From the NCBI GenBank assembly GCA_002172675.1, contig NETF01000146.1, positions 1 through 62,247 of the forward strand: a DNA stretch of 62,247 bases. The letters are read 5' to 3'. This DNA comes from an unicellular cyanobacterium SU3. Lineage in GTDB: Bacteria > Cyanobacteriota > Cyanobacteriia > Cyanobacteriales > Microcystaceae. The notes beneath the pieces were generated by a model. It was given only the letters and a program-made list of their open reading frames with translations, was not told where the DNA came from and searched no databases. Shown here piece by piece: positions 44,168-52,878 of the stretch (positions are counted from its first letter, which is position 1; each line of letters opens with the position of its first letter). Both the position numbers and the translations under genes were made by a program.

Positions 44168-44602
44168 ATGAGAGAACTTGACCGAGAAAAAACTAATGAC
44201 ATTCTCAACACCATCATGGAATATGAATTGGCTGGTGTTGTTCGCTATACTCATTATTCTTTAATGGTAACAGGCCCTCATCGTCTTCCTATTGTACAAT
44301 TTTTCCAACAACAGGCCACAGAATCGTTGCTTCATGCTCAACAAGTAGGAGAAATCCTAACAGGATTAGAAGGCCATCCTAGCTTAAAAATTGCCCAGAT
44401 GGAAGAGACGAACGAGCATAGTTTACACGCCATTCTCCTAGAAAGTCTCAACCATGAAAAAAAAGCATTAGATTTGTATAAAGACCTCTTAGAATTGGTA
44501 GAAAATGCCAGTATTTACATTGAAGAATTTGCACGGGGAATGATTGGACAAGAAGAAGTTCATAACATAGAATTGAAAAAAATGTTACGGGATTATGTTT
44601 AA
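44168..44602 (+). CDS. bacterioferritin/ferritin-like protein
   Basis: A 144-aa four-helix ferritin-like protein. Helix segments MEYELAGVVRYTHYSLMVTG and ESLLHAQQVGEIL supply Glu18, Glu53 and His56-type iron ligands, with EEFARGMIGQEEVHNIE providing Glu/Glu/His in the last helix. It oxidises and stores Fe(II). The FTR1 iron permease gene starts 108 bases downstream on the same strand, making an iron uptake/storage pair. Confidence 0.82.
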   Translation: MRELDREKTNDILNTIMEYELAGVVRYTHYSLMVTGPHRLPIVQFFQQQATESLLHAQQVGEILTGLEGHPSLKIAQMEETNEHSLHAILLESLNHEKKALDLYKDLLELVENASIYIEEFARGMIGQEEVHNIELKKMLRDYV

Positions 44603-44710
44603 TCAGACCCCAGCAATTTAAAAGTAACCCAGACATCTCGTCTGGGAAATCTAGAAAATAATAGAAAAAAATTATATAATCGATAGGTAATCAATAAGCC
44701 CTTGTAAATC

Positions 44711-45637
44711 ATGGATTTCAGTGCTGCATTACCGACATTTATTGTCACCTTACGAGAAGGATTTGAAGCGTCTCTGGTGGTGGGTATCGTACTCGCTTGT
44801 CTAAAAAAAGTCGAACAAACCCAACTCAATCGTTGGGTATATAAAGGAATTGGCGGAGGGATTGTCGCCAGTATTTTAGTAGGATTATTATTAGGAGGAA
44901 TCCTGCAAGGGGTGAATAATTATCAAAGTCCTTATACCCCTATTATCAAAGAATGTTTAGCCACATTATTTGGCATCATAGCGGTTGCTATGTTAAGTTG
45001 GATGCTCATTTGGATGACCCAACAAGGAAAGCAATTAAAAGGAGAAGTTGAACAAGGAATTGAAGCAGCCATAAGTGGCAATAATAGTGCAGGAAAAGGT
45101 ATTTTCTTATTAGTTTTTGTCGCTGTTTTAAGGGAAGGCTTTGAAACAGTTTTGTTTATCATTGCGAAATTTGAAAACAGTTGGAAAATTCCTAGTATCG
45201 GCGCAACGTTAGGATTACTAACTGCAGCTACATTAGGATTTCTTCTCTTTAAGTTAGGGGTTAAAATTAATATTCGTCTCTTTTTTAAAGTGATGGGAAT
45301 TTTCTTACTATTAGTGGTAGGCGGATTAGTTTTAGGAGTCCTGAAACATCTTAATTTAGTGGTGATGTTTTTAGCTCAACTAGAACCCAGTTTTTCACAA
45401 TGGTGTTGGGTTCCTGGTGACTCTTGTATTTTAGGTCCTTTGGTTTGGGATGGGTCTAATATTTTGCCTGATAAAACTTTTCCCGGCATTATTCTTAAAT
45501 CTCTGTTTGGCTATCGACAAACTTTATATTTAGGACAAATCCTTGTTTATCTATTGTTTTTATTGATTGTAGGGACTTTTTATTTCAAAAGTTTATCCAG
45601 TTCTACCCCTTCCAAATCAGCAGAAAAGGTAAGCTAA
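44711..45637 (+). CDS. FTR1-type iron permease
   Basis: A 308-aa polytopic permease with the two signature REGFE motifs, LREGFEASLVVGIVLA (Arg15-Glu19) and VLREGFETVLFIIA (about residues 138-151), seven predicted helices, and WVPGDSCILGPLVWD in the last loop. It imports ferric iron. It sits just after the bacterioferritin gene and before the sensor/vWA/tubulin module. Confidence 0.85.
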   Translation: MDFSAALPTFIVTLREGFEASLVVGIVLACLKKVEQTQLNRWVYKGIGGGIVASILVGLLLGGILQGVNNYQSPYTPIIKECLATLFGIIAVAMLSWMLIWMTQQGKQLKGEVEQGIEAAISGNNSAGKGIFLLVFVAVLREGFETVLFIIAKFENSWKIPSIGATLGLLTAATLGFLLFKLGVKINIRLFFKVMGIFLLLVVGGLVLGVLKHLNLVVMFLAQLEPSFSQWCWVPGDSCILGPLVWDGSNILPDKTFPGIILKSLFGYRQTLYLGQILVYLLFLLIVGTFYFKSLSSSTPSKSAEKVS

Positions 45638-45760: not shown

Positions 45761-47350
45761 ATGAGTTCATGGACTTGTGATGGAGTACCCAAAGACGGTA
45801 AACAATACCCTGGAGTATCTCCCCACACCCCTCAAGTCAACACCGGCCCTGACTGTATCATTTGCGGCTTACCCAAAGAAGCTATGGAAGCAGGGAAACA
45901 AGGGAAACAAAAACCAAGTAAAACCGTTGTAGCAGGGAGTTCGGGCAGTGGTAGTCCTTCCTGGCTTATCCCTGCTATTATTGCTCTGATTATCATCATT
46001 TTGGGTGGTGGGGTGGCTGCATTCTTCTTGCTGAAAGGTAACGAGCAAAGCATCAATCCTCCGACTCCTCCTCCCTCACCCACCCCAACCATCCCGACTC
46101 CTAGCAATGGGGAGTCTGTTAGTCGAGGAGAGAAACTCTTTTTACAAGCAACCCCCAATAAACAAGCAGGGGCCGACGCATTTGTCCAAGAAAATTGGGA
46201 CGAAGCGATCGCAGCTTATGAAACAGCCGTTCAAAGCGATCGCAATGATCCAGAAAGTCGCATTTATTGGCAAAACGCCCAAGCCAAACAAGCCGGCAAC
46301 CCCCTAACTATTGCCGTTGCCGTTCCCACCAGTAGTAGTCCCGACTCTGCGGCCGAAATTTTGCGAGGAGTAGCTAAATATCAAACAGAATATAATCAAT
46401 CTTCGGCTTCAGGGCAACTGTTAGAAGTGGCCATCATCGATAGTAGTGACCCCACCACTGCCGCTAATGTTGCCCAAACAGTGATCAATACTCCCGATAT
46501 TTTAGGTATTGTCGGCTATGGAATTGATCAAGGCAGTCAAGCAGCCTTACAACAGTATGAAAATGCAGGAGTTGCAGTTTTATCTCCCCTTACCACTAGC
46601 TTTCAAGGATCAACCCTGAGAACCATTCCCATTAATGAAAAAGAAGACGAATTATTAGTTAATTATTTGCAAGCTGTGGGAAAAACCTTAACCCAGTATG
46701 CAGCGCAACAGCAACCTTCACCTAACATTGCTATTTTTTATAATTCTGATAGTGGTTATAGCCAACAATTACAACAAGAAATTATTAATAGTTTGCCCGA
46801 AGTTCAAGGCAATTTAATCGAGCAAATTGATATTAGTTCCCCTAACTTTGATGCAAATAGTACCGTTAGTAACGTGCAAAATAGTGGAGCAAATGTAGCT
46901 ATTTTAGCCTTGAGTAAAAGTAAAGTGCCTCAAGCCGTAGAAATAGCTAAAGCGAATGAAAATAATGGCTCTCCTTTGCTCTTAATGGGAGGAGATGAAC
47001 TCTATAATGCTGATATTTTAGTTCAAGGGGGCGATGCGATCGCAGGTATAATCTTAGCCGTTCCTTGGAGTTTTAGTCCCACAGATGACTTTGCTCAAGA
47101 TGCTTTGCAAAGTTGGAAAGGACGAGTTAGTTGGCGTACAGCCACCGCTTATGATGCTACCAAAGCTTTAGTCGAAACCGTCAGTCAAAATCCCGATCGC
47201 GCGATGATATTTCAGGGATTTAACAACGGTGTCACCCTGTCTGATAGTACCACCGATTTTAATTTATTTAATGAAGTTCCCTTAGTTCAAGCGGTTAAAG
47301 GAAATGAAGGTCCCACAGGATCAGACTATCAATTTGATTCACTAAAATAA
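45761..47350 (+). CDS. membrane sensor: zinc-ribbon-like N-terminus, TM, TPR-like and periplasmic binding-protein domain
   Basis: A 529-aa protein. N-terminal about 40 residues hold a Cys-x-x-Cys-type knuckle (VNTGPDCIICGLPKEA) with Cys6. A Ser/Gly linker leads to a single transmembrane helix (WLIPAIIALIIIILGGGVAA), then a Pro-rich spacer, a TPR-like helical pair (NWDEAIAAYETAVQSDRNDP), and a Peripla_BP_6-type ligand domain (PLTIAVAVPTSSSPDSAAEI and NAGVAVLSPLTTSFQGSTLR). The binding domain should face the periplasm. It overlaps in cluster with a vWA membrane protein and a tubulin-like GTPase. Confidence 0.7.
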   Translation: MSSWTCDGVPKDGKQYPGVSPHTPQVNTGPDCIICGLPKEAMEAGKQGKQKPSKTVVAGSSGSGSPSWLIPAIIALIIIILGGGVAAFFLLKGNEQSINPPTPPPSPTPTIPTPSNGESVSRGEKLFLQATPNKQAGADAFVQENWDEAIAAYETAVQSDRNDPESRIYWQNAQAKQAGNPLTIAVAVPTSSSPDSAAEILRGVAKYQTEYNQSSASGQLLEVAIIDSSDPTTAANVAQTVINTPDILGIVGYGIDQGSQAALQQYENAGVAVLSPLTTSFQGSTLRTIPINEKEDELLVNYLQAVGKTLTQYAAQQQPSPNIAIFYNSDSGYSQQLQQEIINSLPEVQGNLIEQIDISSPNFDANSTVSNVQNSGANVAILALSKSKVPQAVEIAKANENNGSPLLLMGGDELYNADILVQGGDAIAGIILAVPWSFSPTDDFAQDALQSWKGRVSWRTATAYDATKALVETVSQNPDRAMIFQGFNNGVTLSDSTTDFNLFNEVPLVQAVKGNEGPTGSDYQFDSLK

Positions 47351-47362
47351 GGAGTTAACATA

Positions 47363-48286
47363 GTGTTAAAATATCGCCGTAAAGTGATTGAATATCCTTT
47401 ATTTTATACCCCATTAATTCTGGTAGGGATTTTTTTAGCTTTAGCTTTATTATTTGGTGTATTAAATATCGGAAAACCACCCGTTGCGGTGGTTATTGCC
47501 CTTGATCTCAGTAGCAGCACTTATCAAGGTCAAACCTTTAACGCTCCTAATACTATTATGGATCAAGAGGTACAAGCAGTTAATGCTTACCTAGAAGCTA
47601 ATGCTAAATTAAGAAATCCTAATAAAGTACAAATTTTGGGTATTGGAGGAGGAAAAGCCCCAAAATTAACGTCTAGTATGGAATCATCTCAAGATGTGAT
47701 TGTTGGGCAATTAAATAGTCAATTAAATGATCCCAATTTACCCTATCAATTACGTCCTGAACCTCAACAAGATGATTTAGATATAGTGATTAATAATGCT
47801 ACGGAAATTCTAGAAGAACAACAAAATCACTGCAAAGAATTATTGATGGTAACAGATACTGGGGTTAATATTACTCAGTCAGCCGTTACCCAAGCAACAG
47901 GGAAAAATATTAAGATCAATTCTCTCATTTTTGGTACAGACAGTGTTCCTAACTTAAGATCAGCGAGTCGTCAAACTGATGGCATTTATATTGATAATAT
48001 TAATCTTTCTAATGCAGGAGGAAGTTATTTAGAAGAAGTCTTTTTAAATGACTTTTTTAGACAGTTTAATAGTAACTGGAAATGGATTAAATTTTGGTTA
48101 GGTTGTGCTGTGATTGCTTTCTTTTGGTTATTAGTTTTACCGTTAGATAGATGGGTGTTTCAAGGAGTATTAAATATGTCCATGGAACCAGCAGGAAAAA
48201 TATCATTAGCGATCGGTTTTATTGGCACAATTATTACAGTTGCTTTGATGATTGCTGGTGGTTTACCTTTAATTTCTCCTTGTTGA
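47363..48286 (+). CDS. membrane vWA-domain protein
   Basis: A 307-aa protein with a membrane-anchored N-terminus (LFYTPLILVGIFLALALLFG), a vWA fold whose MIDAS is DLSSST (about residues 49-54, the DxSxS pattern), ILGIGGG and a second metal-site region, and two C-terminal transmembrane helices (WIKFWLGCAVIAFFWLLVLP and LSLAIGFIGTIITVALM-type). Its start is GTG 13 bases after the sensor gene, with a GGAG Shine-Dalgarno. It should form a complex in the membrane with the sensor and perhaps the tubulin-like protein. Confidence 0.7.
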   Translation: MLKYRRKVIEYPLFYTPLILVGIFLALALLFGVLNIGKPPVAVVIALDLSSSTYQGQTFNAPNTIMDQEVQAVNAYLEANAKLRNPNKVQILGIGGGKAPKLTSSMESSQDVIVGQLNSQLNDPNLPYQLRPEPQQDDLDIVINNATEILEEQQNHCKELLMVTDTGVNITQSAVTQATGKNIKINSLIFGTDSVPNLRSASRQTDGIYIDNINLSNAGGSYLEEVFLNDFFRQFNSNWKWIKFWLGCAVIAFFWLLVLPLDRWVFQGVLNMSMEPAGKISLAIGFIGTIITVALMIAGGLPLISPC

Positions 48287-48316
48287 TAGGAGAATAATAT
48301 ATAGCAATTCCCATAG

Positions 48317-48861
48317 TTATGAGGTACAGTAACAGCAATGAGTAAACCAGTTACGAATATCTTGTTTGGTAACTTGTAACATAGCTGATGTAATACCTTC
48401 TATTAAGTCTTTATAGTTTCTTGCTTTGATTTTTCTCAAAATAGCTTTAACTTTTGACCAGAAATTTTCAATCGGAGAAAATTCAGGGGAATAAGGAGGT
48501 AGATAGATTAAATTAGCCCCAGCTTTTTCAATAGATTCTTTGACCATTTCTCCGAGATGAATTCTAGCATTATCCATAATAACACAAGCATCTTTCCATA
48601 GCTTTGGTACTAATTTTGTAAGGATAAAAGCTTCAAATGTAATTCCGTCTACTGACCCATAAATATTCTTTGTTGCCAGAACTTTATCCAAGGATAATGC
48701 ACTAATAATAGAAATATTTTTGCCTCGCTTCTGAGGTTTTTCTACCCTAGCTCTCCTGCCTTTTAGAGACCTAGCGTATAGTCTCAGCATTGCTAAATTT
48801 ACCCCTGATTCGTCTATAAAAATTAAATTATTTGTTTTTATCTCTCGAAGAGTTTCCCAAA
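48317..48861 (-). CDS. IS630 transposase, DDE half (orfB)
   Basis: The catalytic half of an IS630 transposase. The open frame continues through 48790 to about 48861 without an ATG. It contains FIDESGVNLAMLRLYARSLK, VIMDNARIHLGEMVKESIEK and IYLPPYSPEFSPIENFWSK, giving the DDE/DDD residues. It is expressed probably as a fusion with orfA by -1 frameshift at the A9 tract. Confidence 0.8.
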
Positions 48862-48864
48862 ACT

Positions 48865-49266
48865 TTACTCTTTTTTTATGGACTTTTTCAGTGTCCTTTT
48901 CAGGGGCATATAAAGTTTTTTTTTGACACTATAGTTCAATTTTTTGCTGATTCTTCCCATTGTGGTTTTTTGGACTTGCACTCCTGTTTCTTTATAGAGT
49001 AACTCACATAATTCTTCGAGAGTTGCATCATTATTTTTTTCCATGATTTCCACTAAAATCACCAATTGCTCACTATTAAGCTTAGGAGATGGGCTTCCTC
49101 CTTGCTGTAAAGGTCTAATATCTCCAGTTTGTTGATATTGTTTAAGTAATTTTTGAATAAAGCTTTTCGCTACTCCAAAACGCTTAGCTAGACTCCTGAT
49201 AGAGAGGTTCTCTTTTTTCCACACTTCGATGATTTTTTCTCTAAAGTCTATAGAATAAGGCTTCAT
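48865..49266 (-). CDS. IS630 transposase, helix-turn-helix half (orfA)
   Basis: A 133-aa frame: KPYSIDFREKIIEVWKKENL, LAKRFGVAKSFIQKLLKQYQ (HTH) and TLEELCELLYKETGVQVQKT. It ends in an out-of-frame tail after an A9 tract at 48916-48924; a -1 slip there restores TLYAPEKDTEKVHKKRVKFW, the family continuation. Confidence 0.8.
   Translation of the reverse strand: MKPYSIDFREKIIEVWKKENLSIRSLAKRFGVAKSFIQKLLKQYQQTGDIRPLQQGGSPSPKLNSEQLVILVEIMEKNNDATLEELCELLYKETGVQVQKTTMGRISKKLNYSVKKKLYMPLKRTLKKSIKKE
48916..48924 (-). promoter_or_regulatory. A9 slippery site, probable programmed -1 frameshift
   Basis: Nine consecutive A on the minus strand (T9 on plus) at the junction of the two transposase frames. 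A -1 shift joins SVKKK to TLYAPEKD, fusing orfA and orfB into one IS630 transposase. Confidence 0.7.
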
Positions 49267-49310
49267 TTTTACTACATTAGTAATAGATATTACAATCTAT
49301 AGTGTACCTC

Positions 49311-49463
49311 ATGAGTCAAGGAAATGCTATAGCAGATTTTCGTAATCTTTTAGTCCATGAATATTTTAGAGTTGAATTAGAACTTGTTTGGCAAATTATT
49401 GTACAAGAAATACCAGAACTAAAATATCAAATTAATTTACTTTTAAAAGATATAGAACAATAA
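49311..49463 (+). pseudogene. HepT-type (DUF86) toxin, 3' remnant
   Basis: The frame reads IADFRNLLVHEYFRVELELV and WQIIVQEIPELKYQINLLLK, the C-terminal HEPN RNase signature of HepT/DUF86 toxins, with Arg-x4-His (RNLLVH) the catalytic pair. Its first residues come from the IS630 end and the N-terminal half is gone. No MntA antitoxin gene remains. Confidence 0.7.
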
Positions 49464-49536
49464 AGTTTTATGTCAATTATATAACGAAAGTGTCTGTAAT
49501 TAACCTAAAATAGACAGTAAGAATCAGGAGGCAGAT

Positions 49537-52500
49537 ATGGCAGCAGTAGAAGAAAAAAGTATGGTTCCCACTGTCTTAGTGGGAGTTGGGGGAACCGGCG
49601 CAGAGATTTTATCAAGAATACGTAGATTAGTAGAAGAAACTTATGGCAGTTTAGAAGCGTTTCCTATCCTCAGTTTTTTAGTGGTAGATACGGATAAAGA
49701 TTATAAAATTAGTAACCCAGAAGCAGGAGGAAGTAAATTCAAAGATCATGAAAAACACTGGGCTAGTGTTAGCGGAAAACAAGTCAGCGATATGGTTTCT
49801 AATATGGAACAATATCCGTGGATTGATCGTTGGTTTCCCAGAGAGTTAGAAAGAAATATTACTTCTTTAGAAGCTGGTGCTGGACAAATTCGTGCTTGTG
49901 GTAGATTTGCTTTATTTTGTAATTATCATGATATTAGAGATAAATTTTTAGGGGCTGTAAATCGGGTTAAAGGCCGCGAAACTTTCATGTTAGATCGGTA
50001 CAATATTAAAGTGAGTACCAACGCCATTAATGTGTTTGTTACAGGGTCACTTTCTGGGGGAACGGGTAGCGGAATGCTTATCGATATCGGCTACTGTGTA
50101 CGTAAATGGTTAGAAGGAGAAGGTAGTCCTTTAGTAACTGCTATTGTTCCCATGCCTCAAGCTTTTGCAGGAATAAAAGTAGGCGATCGCGTCTTAGCAA
50201 ATGGCTACGCAGCCATGATGGAATTAAGTTATTTTTCTGACTATCGAACGGAATATAATTGTCAATTTAGTAAGAATTTGGCCGATGAAGTTCGTAGTAA
50301 TCGCGCCCCCTTTGATTTTACTTATTTAGTGGGAACAAAAAATGGAGAAAGTGACTTTAAACTGGATCAAATACGGGAGATGATTGCACAAAATATTTTC
50401 CTAGATTTGACTTCAGATTTTTCTCCCCATAAGCGATCTATCCGAGATAATATTAAATCTGCTTGGGCGCAAGCTGATCCTGGTGGTAGAGGTTATCCCA
50501 AAAACTTTATGAGTTTTGGCTTATCTACCATTGAAATTCCTATTTTTCAGATTAGAAACTCTTTATGTTATCGATTAGCAAAAGACATCGTTAATTGGTG
50601 GTTAAATGAACAAGTACAATTACCAGCCGATTCGATGGAATTGATTAAAGGTGATATTCTTAAAAAAATGCGTTTAACTGACGTAGAATTATTAGCCGAT
50701 ATGGGGGCAGCACAAGATAAATCTTATATTGAAGAAGTCTCGCAATGGGTTAACCAACTTCGGCAAACTATTAACCAAGAAAATTATTTACAGTGTACCG
50801 CAACAGGAATTAATATTTTTGGTAAAGAACAGGGAAAAATAAAAGATTTAGATCGGTTTATTCAAGAAGAAGTTAATAGTTATAAACAAGATCATTTTCG
50901 AGAATTAAGTCCCGATGAAAGGTTACACGGGGACTATTTTCAAAGAATCTATGATAACCGCGATCGCACCATTAGTCAAGGAAGAAAAGCCCTAGAAAAT
51001 GAACTTTATCGTATTATTGAAGATCGGAATTTAGGACCCAAGTTTGCTCATATCTTTATAACAATGGTCAGACAAATTTTTGATGATACCAGACAAAGAT
51101 TTAGTCAACAAAAAGAACAACTTTGGGAACCCAAAGAAACAGAACGGCAAAAAGAATATGAAAAAGCTTTAGAAGAATTTAGTCAAATAAAAGAGCAATA
51201 TGGTATTACCAAAAAAGATCGAATCACCTTGTGTTGTGATAGCATTTTAGAAAATCTTCAAGGCAGTTTAATCGCAACGATACAGCGAAAAACTCGCGCT
51301 GCTTCATTAACCGTTATTGATCGTTTAAAAGAAGAATTAGACAGTTTAGAAAGGCGTTTAAATCGCTTTCAACAGCGTTTAATACAGACAAGAGACGAAT
51401 TTGCCAAAGAAGCCGATCATCAAGCCGAAAGTGCCGATGTTTTAACCATTAATGGTATTAAATTGTACGATCGCGATAAGATGAATGAACTGTATCAAGA
51501 CTTAATTGAAAAATTAGGATCGAACGTTCAAGGAAGTAAAAGTCGCTTTGAAATGGGACTGGATCAGATTTGTAGTACCCTATCAGAAGACATTTTAAAA
51601 GAAGCCAGTCCGTTATGGAAGAAAAACCGCCTCGCTGATGAATATATGCGCTTATTTGATGTTCAAAAAATTCCCGATGTACAACAAGAAGATTTAGAAG
51701 AAATTATCTATAATTATAGTAAAGAAACCGTGGTGGATAAAACCCCTAAAAATGCCCATCTTTATACTGAGATGGCAGCCTGCGATCGCCTCTTCAAACT
51801 CTATAATGACGAAACAGAAATTACCGATAATATTCGCATTGCCTATCATAAATCTAAGCCCTTAATTATGATGAATCGGGCAATTTTATCAGGAAAAGAT
51901 GCAGGGTTTACTCCTTCTACTAACGTTAATGTTGGCATTTTAGGAGGAAGAAATACCGCCGATCCGGCTGCTCAAAAAATACTCCCTTTACTACAACAAT
52001 TCCCTGATATTAAGGAAAGTGCTATCAAACCGTTAGGTGATTCTGAACGTCATCGGATGGTATTTGTACAAGAAACGGGAGGATTTTCTTTACGTTGTAT
52101 TGATGGCATGAAAGAGTTAAGACAATCCTATCAAGATTGGAAAGGAGACAGTATTGAAGCCAAACGCGCCCAATTACGAGGAGAACCGAGAGACTTACCG
52201 ATTCCTGTTCACATACAAAAAGAGCCTCCTTTTTGGGATGTCTTTCCTGAAGATCCGAAAATCTTTCAATTAGTGATTCAAGCAAGAGCATTAAACGTCT
52301 TATACTTATCAGAAAATCAGGCAACGAGAGAAAACACAATCCGTTACACTCGTAAAACAAATATAGGTCTAGAAAACGTTGACATTGCCTCAAGTTGGGA
52401 AGAAGCATCACAAATACTAGAAGTTCGCGCTTGCCGTGAAGATAGAGAAGAAATACAACGACAAATTACTGAAAAGTTAAACCAAGCAGAAACTCCTGAA

Positions 52501-52878
52501 CAAAAACGACAACTTTATCAAACTTTAATGGCTTATTTAGAACACCGTTCCTTAGAATTAGGAAAACAAGGCGGTAAAGATAGTCCTGAATATAAACGAG
52601 AAGCAGAAATTATTAAAAGATTGATCGATGATCATCAACTTTATGTCACTGAAACGGTAAGTCATACCGAAGAAACAACAGCAGAAAAACCCCCTCAACC
52701 CCCTCAACCTCCTGCTCCTAAAAAATGGTATTTATATAAAGATAATCAGCAAACTGGCCCCTTTTCAGCCGATGACTTATTAACCCAAGGAGTTACCCCT
52801 CAAACCTATATTTGGTGTGCTGGTATGGATGGGTGGAAAACAGCTTTAGAAGTGGCAGAATTAAGACATTTGTTTTAA
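49537..52878 (+). CDS. tubulin-like GTPase with C-terminal GYF_2 domain
   Basis: A 1113-aa cytosolic protein. The first 200 residues show a tubulin/FtsZ-like fold: N-terminal loop VLVGVGGTGAEILSRIRRLV and the tubulin signature GGTGSG at 174-179 (TGSLSGGTGSGMLIDIGYC). A large middle region (about 350-1050) is helical with coiled-coil parts (RLKEELDSLERRLNRFQQRL). The end (about 1062-1113) is a GYF_2 domain (KKWYLYKDNQQTGPFSADDL and TPQTYIWCAGMDGWKTALEV), often linking proteins to partners. An AGGAGG ribosome binding site precedes the ATG. Role with the vWA and sensor proteins is inferred. Confidence 0.75.
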   Translation: MAAVEEKSMVPTVLVGVGGTGAEILSRIRRLVEETYGSLEAFPILSFLVVDTDKDYKISNPEAGGSKFKDHEKHWASVSGKQVSDMVSNMEQYPWIDRWFPRELERNITSLEAGAGQIRACGRFALFCNYHDIRDKFLGAVNRVKGRETFMLDRYNIKVSTNAINVFVTGSLSGGTGSGMLIDIGYCVRKWLEGEGSPLVTAIVPMPQAFAGIKVGDRVLANGYAAMMELSYFSDYRTEYNCQFSKNLADEVRSNRAPFDFTYLVGTKNGESDFKLDQIREMIAQNIFLDLTSDFSPHKRSIRDNIKSAWAQADPGGRGYPKNFMSFGLSTIEIPIFQIRNSLCYRLAKDIVNWWLNEQVQLPADSMELIKGDILKKMRLTDVELLADMGAAQDKSYIEEVSQWVNQLRQTINQENYLQCTATGINIFGKEQGKIKDLDRFIQEEVNSYKQDHFRELSPDERLHGDYFQRIYDNRDRTISQGRKALENELYRIIEDRNLGPKFAHIFITMVRQIFDDTRQRFSQQKEQLWEPKETERQKEYEKALEEFSQIKEQYGITKKDRITLCCDSILENLQGSLIATIQRKTRAASLTVIDRLKEELDSLERRLNRFQQRLIQTRDEFAKEADHQAESADVLTINGIKLYDRDKMNELYQDLIEKLGSNVQGSKSRFEMGLDQICSTLSEDILKEASPLWKKNRLADEYMRLFDVQKIPDVQQEDLEEIIYNYSKETVVDKTPKNAHLYTEMAACDRLFKLYNDETEITDNIRIAYHKSKPLIMMNRAILSGKDAGFTPSTNVNVGILGGRNTADPAAQKILPLLQQFPDIKESAIKPLGDSERHRMVFVQETGGFSLRCIDGMKELRQSYQDWKGDSIEAKRAQLRGEPRDLPIPVHIQKEPPFWDVFPEDPKIFQLVIQARALNVLYLSENQATRENTIRYTRKTNIGLENVDIASSWEEASQILEVRACREDREEIQRQITEKLNQAETPEQKRQLYQTLMAYLEHRSLELGKQGGKDSPEYKREAEIIKRLIDDHQLYVTETVSHTEETTAEKPPQPPQPPAPKKWYLYKDNQQTGPFSADDLLTQGVTPQTYIWCAGMDGWKTALEVAELRHLF

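Follow-up and report, generated by a model that had tools for sequence, protein, structure and literature searches.

The window analyzed here is a stretch of 62,247 nt (contig NETF01000146.1) from the cyanobacterium SU3 (Microcystaceae), and the locus under study occupies its positions 45,761–52,878. Three forward-strand open reading frames (ORFs) make up the locus: a 529-residue sensor with a solute-binding domain (45,761–47,350); a 307-residue transmembrane (TM) protein with a von Willebrand factor type A (vWA) domain, which starts at GTG (47,363–48,286); and a 1113-residue tubulin-like protein of the FtsZl1 family (49,537–52,878). A preliminary description of this DNA had presented them as three adjacent genes. 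All three ORFs lie where it placed them, and only 12 bp separate the sensor and vWA genes; the tubulin-like gene, by contrast, is not contiguous with the vWA gene, since an IS630-family insertion and a HepT remnant lie between them. New in this analysis are the conservation of the sensor, a putative receptor, as a component of the system and the modularity of its ectodomain.

The three proteins

The sensor is built, in order, of a zinc-finger-like module, a hydrophobic segment, a helical pair resembling tetratricopeptide repeats (TPR-like), and a type I periplasmic-binding domain. The last (46,304–47,188, forward strand) matches Peripla_BP_6 in a domain scan (E 7e-17), and Foldseek places Leu/Ile/Val-binding proteins at the top of the matches to the AlphaFold model (1z15, 6.4e-14, target TM-score 0.56), with ectodomains of metabotropic glutamate receptors (mGluR) lower in the ranking. 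The periplasmic binding-type domain of the preliminary description is thus confirmed, while the TPR-like segment and the N-terminal module were absent from it. The module (45,770–45,874, forward strand) carries residues W4, C6, G8, H22, C32 and C35, which all 22 aligned relatives share, and would bind zinc; the first 40 residues are modeled with a predicted local distance difference test (pLDDT) score of 83–92 in blocks of ten. By the resemblance of its motif, this finger is taken to be RanBP2-like. No Pfam match to the RanBP2-type finger (PF00641) passes the cut-off in the window sensor, and a distant relative (L149) matches Zn_ribbon_RanBP at 0.0011, under the cut-off. The TM helix, read from the sequence at residues ~68–91 (45,962–46,033, forward strand) and modeled as a helix at 71–82, corresponds to a hydrophobic segment found in all 35 sensors tested. 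Domain logic, and only weakly the distribution of charges, suggests that the finger lies in the cytosol and the ectodomain outside.

The second protein gives a single, sub-threshold Pfam match, to VWA_2 (3e-4, 21.9 bits against a cut-off of 27). Its metal ion-dependent adhesion site (MIDAS) reads DLSSS (47,504–47,518, forward strand), and the DxSxS motif is retained in 37 of 38 full-length relatives, the exception being L112, which agrees with the membrane vWA protein with an intact MIDAS described earlier; the later-Asp pattern is found in 34 of the 38, counted in a search window that clips N-terminally extended frames. At least two hydrophobic TM segments and a basic N terminus occur in all 35 vWA proteins tested, so that, by the positive-inside rule, the vWA domain would face outside. 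The TM scaffold is the better conserved part of the protein: by alignment, the vWA domain is gone and the scaffold kept in L068 and L085, both from genome G207, and L113 and L115 (the latter probably the contig of L068) encode 125-residue versions that match the TM-scaffold profile and lack the vWA domain by their length.

The third protein matches Tubulin_2 with an E-value of about 7.5e-115 to 2.8e-114 (382.5 bits against a cut-off of 27). The GTPase-type domain (49,573–50,592, forward strand; 7.5e-115) contains the T4 loop GGTGSG (50,056–50,073), invariant in 40 of 40 aligned rows, and the protein ends in a GYF_2 domain (52,726–52,863; E 2e-14), in whose place relatives have a zinc ribbon or SHOCT. 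Length, loop and C-terminal domain are as the preliminary description gave them. In the AlphaFold model (40-row alignment, mean pLDDT 82), an N-terminal GTPase-type domain is followed by a coiled-coil-like region of mostly long helices (residues 466–660; 50,932–51,516) and by a mixed, mostly helical C-terminal part. The best solved matches of the model are CetZ2, CetZ1, gamma-tubulin and FtsZ, with E-values of 9e-5 or weaker, a high root-mean-square deviation, and alignments spanning ~350 columns; a sequence search of solved structures with E up to 1 returned only a designed helical bundle (0.21). FtsZ strands S8–S9 had been placed by eye at residues 790–860 and the T7–S7 region at 290–333; profile comparison gave nothing for either, as hhalign of residues 255–360 and 770–960 against a narrow FtsZ profile (16 rows) found no match and residues 770–960 scored 11, versus 12–20 for 20 column permutations. 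In Crocosphaera watsonii WH 8501 (L095:9001–12300), the tubulin-like frame is in three pieces, through decay or sequencing error.

Co-inheritance and exchange of the outer domain

A search for PF13809 in 292 genomes of the phylum gave matches in 61, and a tree was built from the 60 FtsZl1 proteins longer than 500 residues in 60 regions fetched around these matches. Many rows of this tree are weakly supported, and two clades stand out by the Shimodaira–Hasegawa-like approximate likelihood-ratio test (SH-aLRT): type A, with the window protein and 22 proteins from 20 genomes (SH-aLRT 98), and type B, with 32 proteins (SH-aLRT 99). G125, the second G072 copy, the fragmentary match in G016 and weak ~500-residue places stand outside the tree and were counted as not type A. 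The finger module is present in 22 of the 292 genomes, that is, in all 20 type-A genomes and in two of the 272 others (G056 and G256; Fisher p 5e-29, uncorrected for kinship), and the G256 match, a 50-residue frame with stops, is probably spurious. Because type-A loci supplied the training sequences of both the finger and the vWA profile, type-A genomes are favored; once the eight training genomes of the finger profile are removed, the counts are 12/12 against 2/272 (p 2e-19). The TM-vWA profile matches 14 genomes, all type A, and without its nine training genomes it matches 5/11 type-A genomes against 0/272 others. Type A is spread over 14 genera, and in six mixed genera (g6, g7, g13, g15, g28 and g33) the finger and the type-A tubulin are jointly present or absent. 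The 2.6-Mb genome G089 has the sensor, vWA and tubulin genes at three distant places and retains all of them.

The linkage of the genes was assessed by scanning named genome contigs with a type-A profile and taking the best 80 of 107 loci. Thirteen of the 80 scored below 900, and 10 of the other 67 had less than 4 kb upstream, leaving 57 assessable loci (profile score >900, at least 4 kb upstream). In 35 of these, both vWA and sensor genes lie within 7 kb on the same strand as the tubulin gene; five more have the vWA gene only, three the sensor only, and 14 neither, including six from Microcystis and five from Laspinema or Oscillatoria. Of the 19 loci that lack an adjacent sensor, 14 were searched genome-wide; 11 of these have a clear finger at another place in the genome, and G303 gave a doubtful match. 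Thus, the co-occurrence with vWA and sensor genes on which the preliminary description had staked its proposal is seen in 35 of the 57 loci, and the finger in every type-A genome of the 292 sampled. In Arthrospira sp. PCC 9108 (L145), the sensor stands beside FtsZl1; it has diverged beyond the reach of the finger profile, but the alignment shows its finger residues to be conserved. Locus L097 is listed as Candidatus Gracilibacteria, but its FtsZl1 falls with Hydrococcus in the tree, so the contig is probably misbinned cyanobacterial DNA.

The finger–TM stalk of the sensor is constant, and its outer domain is drawn from three solute-binding classes. Besides the Peripla_BP_6 type (37 rows, labeled by a profile score >200), the stalk carries PBP_like_2, presumably PstS-like, in L112, L114, L137, L151 and L161 (E 9e-32 or better), and a PhnD-like Phosphonate-bd domain in L144 and L052 (4e-23 and 6e-23). 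The more distant locus L080 has a zinc-ribbon/TM/PBP_like_2 protein of its own next to FtsZl1. Mapped on a tree of 70 FtsZl1 proteins, 43 of them labeled (37, 4 and 2), the class shows at least five changes; this is a quick tree with SH-aLRT support only and many weak forks, in which 26 type-A rows are unlabeled and from which the fragment L161 was left out. Another 13 loci are more distant or fragmentary. Of these, L149, L150, L152, L156, L157 and L163 have a protein matching the periplasmic-binding protein (PBP) profile of the sensor directly after FtsZl1, with the zinc-ribbon start visible in L149, L150 and L163 and a Peripla_BP_6 domain in L149; L153, L155, L160, L165, L168 and L170 have no PBP-profile protein there, and some of them end at a contig edge. 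Replacement of the ligand-binding class, with the stalk and the partners kept, is what is expected if solute binding is the point of the system and the ligand is lineage-specific.

The insertion and neighboring genes

The IS630-family insertion lies on the reverse strand between the vWA and tubulin genes (48,302–49,331; ends approximate), with imperfect terminal inverted repeats and TA ends seen by eye and a transposase split over two frames (48,317–49,266). It is followed by the tail of a HepT gene on the forward strand (49,314–49,464; HepT-like match 4.7e-12). The closest relative of the tubulin-like protein is in Cyanothece sp. BG0011 (97% identity), with the Crocosphaera loci next, and two of the latter have a nucleotidyltransferase–HepT pair between the vWA and tubulin genes (L093:2776–3335, by Pfam; L095:8287–8927, by homology). 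L091 has the nucleotidyltransferase alone at this site and L094 no gene; among the 80 loci, the pair or its first gene occurs in L091, L093 and L095 only. Since the pair occupies the site of the insertion, IS630 struck a toxin–antitoxin-type cassette within the operon and spared the three genes. Small genes also lie between the sensor and vWA genes in L051 (11553–12384) and L055 (6068–8037); judged by eye, they are a pair of GNAT/DUF1778-like genes and genes of Uma2-like type.

Upstream of the sensor, the window has a ferritin-like gene and an FTR1 permease (44,168–45,637), as do L035, L091, L092 and L094; in L171 (8305–11452; genome G095, genus g3), the two stand beside a sensor whose tubulin gene is elsewhere. 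These neighbors hint at a nutrient context, but FTR1 is present in just 3 of the 80 loci. The nine window genes typed by Pfam include no ABC permease or ATPase; OmpA-like proteins, kinases and P-loop GTPases are likewise missing from them. A kinase-like gene counted by homology (two typed by Pfam) lies within 1.5 kb downstream of FtsZl1 in 9 of 67 relatives and could be an output at those loci.

Other tubulin-like loci of the phylum have different neighbors. Type-B FtsZl1 genes (L039:7768–14720 and others) are accompanied by a vWA-like protein and a pair of stator proteins resembling ZorA and ZorB (PADLOC matches in L039: ZorA 2e-13, ZorB 3e-11), so that type B may couple a tubulin-like protein to an ion-driven stator; the upstream protein has no Pfam match and is called vWA-like from its motif and from what is given of the FtsZl1 family in PMC2875224. 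A third tubulin-like family, of ~500 residues (L199:2892–15180 in G014, genus g2; L178; L179), neighbors a 1086-residue MreB/FtsA-like protein and a lipoprotein-like protein bearing the motif DGSGSM; L199 also has a MotAB-like pair beside it (by eye; no Pfam match).

Readings of the locus and comparison with known systems

We consider the chances about even that the locus encodes a transmembrane solute receptor controlling a tubulin-like GTPase. Its solute-binding domain, of a lineage shared with ABC transporters, would face the periplasm, tethered by one TM helix and connected across the membrane to a RanBP2-like zinc finger in the cytosol. The vWA protein would be a membrane co-subunit, with its MIDAS-type domain outside and its conserved TM scaffold in the membrane, that probably stabilizes or gates the receptor. 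Ligand binding would alter the finger or the way it is presented, which in turn would have the finger recruit, release or cluster cytosolic FtsZl1, whose GTP state and coiled coil would serve as the output scaffold. The fuller version is somewhat more tentative: exchangeable nutrient-binding ectodomains would signal directly to the GTPase by way of a single TM helix and the finger, and the vWA protein would be an optional gate outside. The preliminary description had likewise linked a ligand-sensing complex in the membrane to a tubulin-like GTPase; co-occurrence makes this the best-supported reading of the locus, and its novelty was overstated.

Several observations weigh against a receptor of this kind. 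G187 has two finger–TM proteins near FtsZl1 that are not solute-binding-like (one was typed and has no Pfam match), and G056 has a finger sensor with type-B FtsZl1 only. Conversely, the genome search gave no finger match in G301 and G304, where FtsZl1 and vWA are present, and the TM-vWA profile is unmatched in 6 of the 20 type-A genomes, so the vWA protein is not obligatory. The charge bias that would orient the sensor is weak, with the N side higher in 14, the C side higher in 7 and 14 ties among 35. The T7 loop and the tubulin C-domain are without sequence support, and GTP hydrolysis is therefore not assured. Lastly, physical contact between finger and FtsZl1 is a proposal, and the FtsZl1 tail changes between GYF_2, zinc ribbon and SHOCT (typed by Pfam in the window, L033, L031 and L074, with SHOCT in L074 below the cut-off, and by eye in others) while the finger stays constant, which opposes a tail–finger contact and makes docking of GYF_2 on the sensor finger unlikely. 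With a constant finger and an exchanged tail, the finger's contact is probably with the core of FtsZl1, and the tail would have another partner.

The FtsZl1 family was defined, as Tubulin_2 and with cyanobacterial members included, by Makarova and Koonin in 2010, who proposed a role in membrane remodeling (PMC2875224). Applied here, FtsZl1 filaments would shape the inner membrane together with the vWA and other subunits, and the solute-binding protein would act as an accessory anchor instead of a sensor. The FtsZl1 and vWA domains fit that description, as do the long helical region and membrane partners of this locus and the stator-like partners of the separate cyanobacterial clade. Remodeling, however, leaves unexplained why the solute-binding class was repeatedly replaced on the same stalk and why the sensor was retained after the genes separated; we found no sign of it, with sequence-level tools that are unable to show it, and regard it as unlikely, if the strongest competitor of a receptor.

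A role in transport, suggested in the reviewer's report printed with the same paper, is less probable still. The solute-binding protein would then feed or regulate uptake, with FtsZl1 as an importer scaffold, perhaps for iron handling in Microcystaceae; the ferritin-like and FTR1 genes precede the sensor in the window and four further loci and, in L171, accompany it even with the tubulin gene elsewhere. Against this stand the rarity of FTR1, the lack of importer genes among the typed window genes (the neighbors at other loci were not typed individually), and the sensor itself, which is TM-tethered with an N-terminal finger, unlike a free or lipid-anchored binding protein. A conflict or defense system akin to the GTPase-centered systems of Kaur et al. 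2020 (PMC7159879) is the least probable: the tubulin and external TM-vWA proteins of the Firmicutes GAP1-N2 systems, the patchy distribution (20/292 genomes) and the toxin–antitoxin-type pair inside the operon of two Crocosphaera loci speak for it, but no family of the PADLOC anti-phage models matches any of the three proteins, no GAP1/DO-GTPase, HSP70 or effector is among the typed window genes, the sensor ectodomains are nutrient-binding folds, and the pair is confined to the few loci named above.

Comparison with known systems starts from cyanobacteria. Sll0445–Sll0447 of Synechocystis include a tubulin-like protein, and their disruption impaired phototaxis (PMC9880817). We judged Sll0445 to belong to a family different from FtsZl1, probably the separate ~500-residue one with an MreB/FtsA-like partner, whose locus is probably this Synechocystis operon; the identification with sll0445 is inferred. 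In Firmicutes, Kaur et al. described tubulin and extracellular TM-vWA proteins in conflict systems, and the locus shares with GAP1-N2 systems a coiled-coil tubulin-domain protein and a TM-vWA protein predicted to place its vWA domain outside. It differs in having a solute-binding receptor instead of GAP1/DO-GTPase, fibronectin type III (FNIII) and HSP70 proteins, none of which is among the typed genes. The sensor shares the type I periplasmic-binding fold with Leu/Ile/Val-binding proteins (1z15, 2liv), with mGluR ectodomains and with the solute-binding proteins of HAAT-type ABC importers. Those of HAAT type are secreted proteins or lipoproteins with a permease and an ATPase, whereas the sensor is anchored by a TM helix and bears a finger at its N terminus, with no ABC importer among the typed genes.

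The closest comparison is with the FtsZl1 systems themselves (PMC2875224). According to that paper, vWA genes occur in the majority of predicted FtsZl1 operons, with MIDAS mostly intact, and the locus has the same Tubulin_2 domain, GGTGSG T4 loop, extended helical coiled coil and operon-encoded membrane vWA protein with an intact MIDAS (vWA gene in 35 + 5 of 57 loci). The OmpA-like protein, kinase or P-loop GTPase that is frequent, though not universal, in such operons is missing from the typed window genes. The preliminary description had called the arrangement not a described pathway: FtsZl1 with a membrane vWA protein was published in 2010, and the receptor as a conserved component is, against the excerpts of that paper, new. 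The printed reviewer's report had pointed to periplasmic-binding neighbors in Polaromonas and Arthrospira, the latter an arrangement that L145 matches, and had suggested transport or signaling; the authors set these neighbors aside as not widely conserved, being present in a single organism or in several relatives. The reviewer also raised the question of how an FtsZ-like protein of the cytosol might cooperate with partners in the periplasm. Among the open-license matches listed, no later work beyond PMC2875224 and PMC7159879 ties FtsZl1 to a solute-binding partner, no function of FtsZl1 is agreed upon in the literature searched, and the proposals of remodeling and of transport or signaling could not be told apart. 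A sensor that crosses the membrane would answer the objection of localization: with its solute-binding domain apparently outside and its finger inside, it would be the missing link and makes the signaling alternative directly testable in a non-pathogenic cyanobacterium. Where FtsZl1 systems were described around the tubulin-like and vWA proteins, a transmembrane zinc-finger/solute-binding receptor is here their conserved partner.

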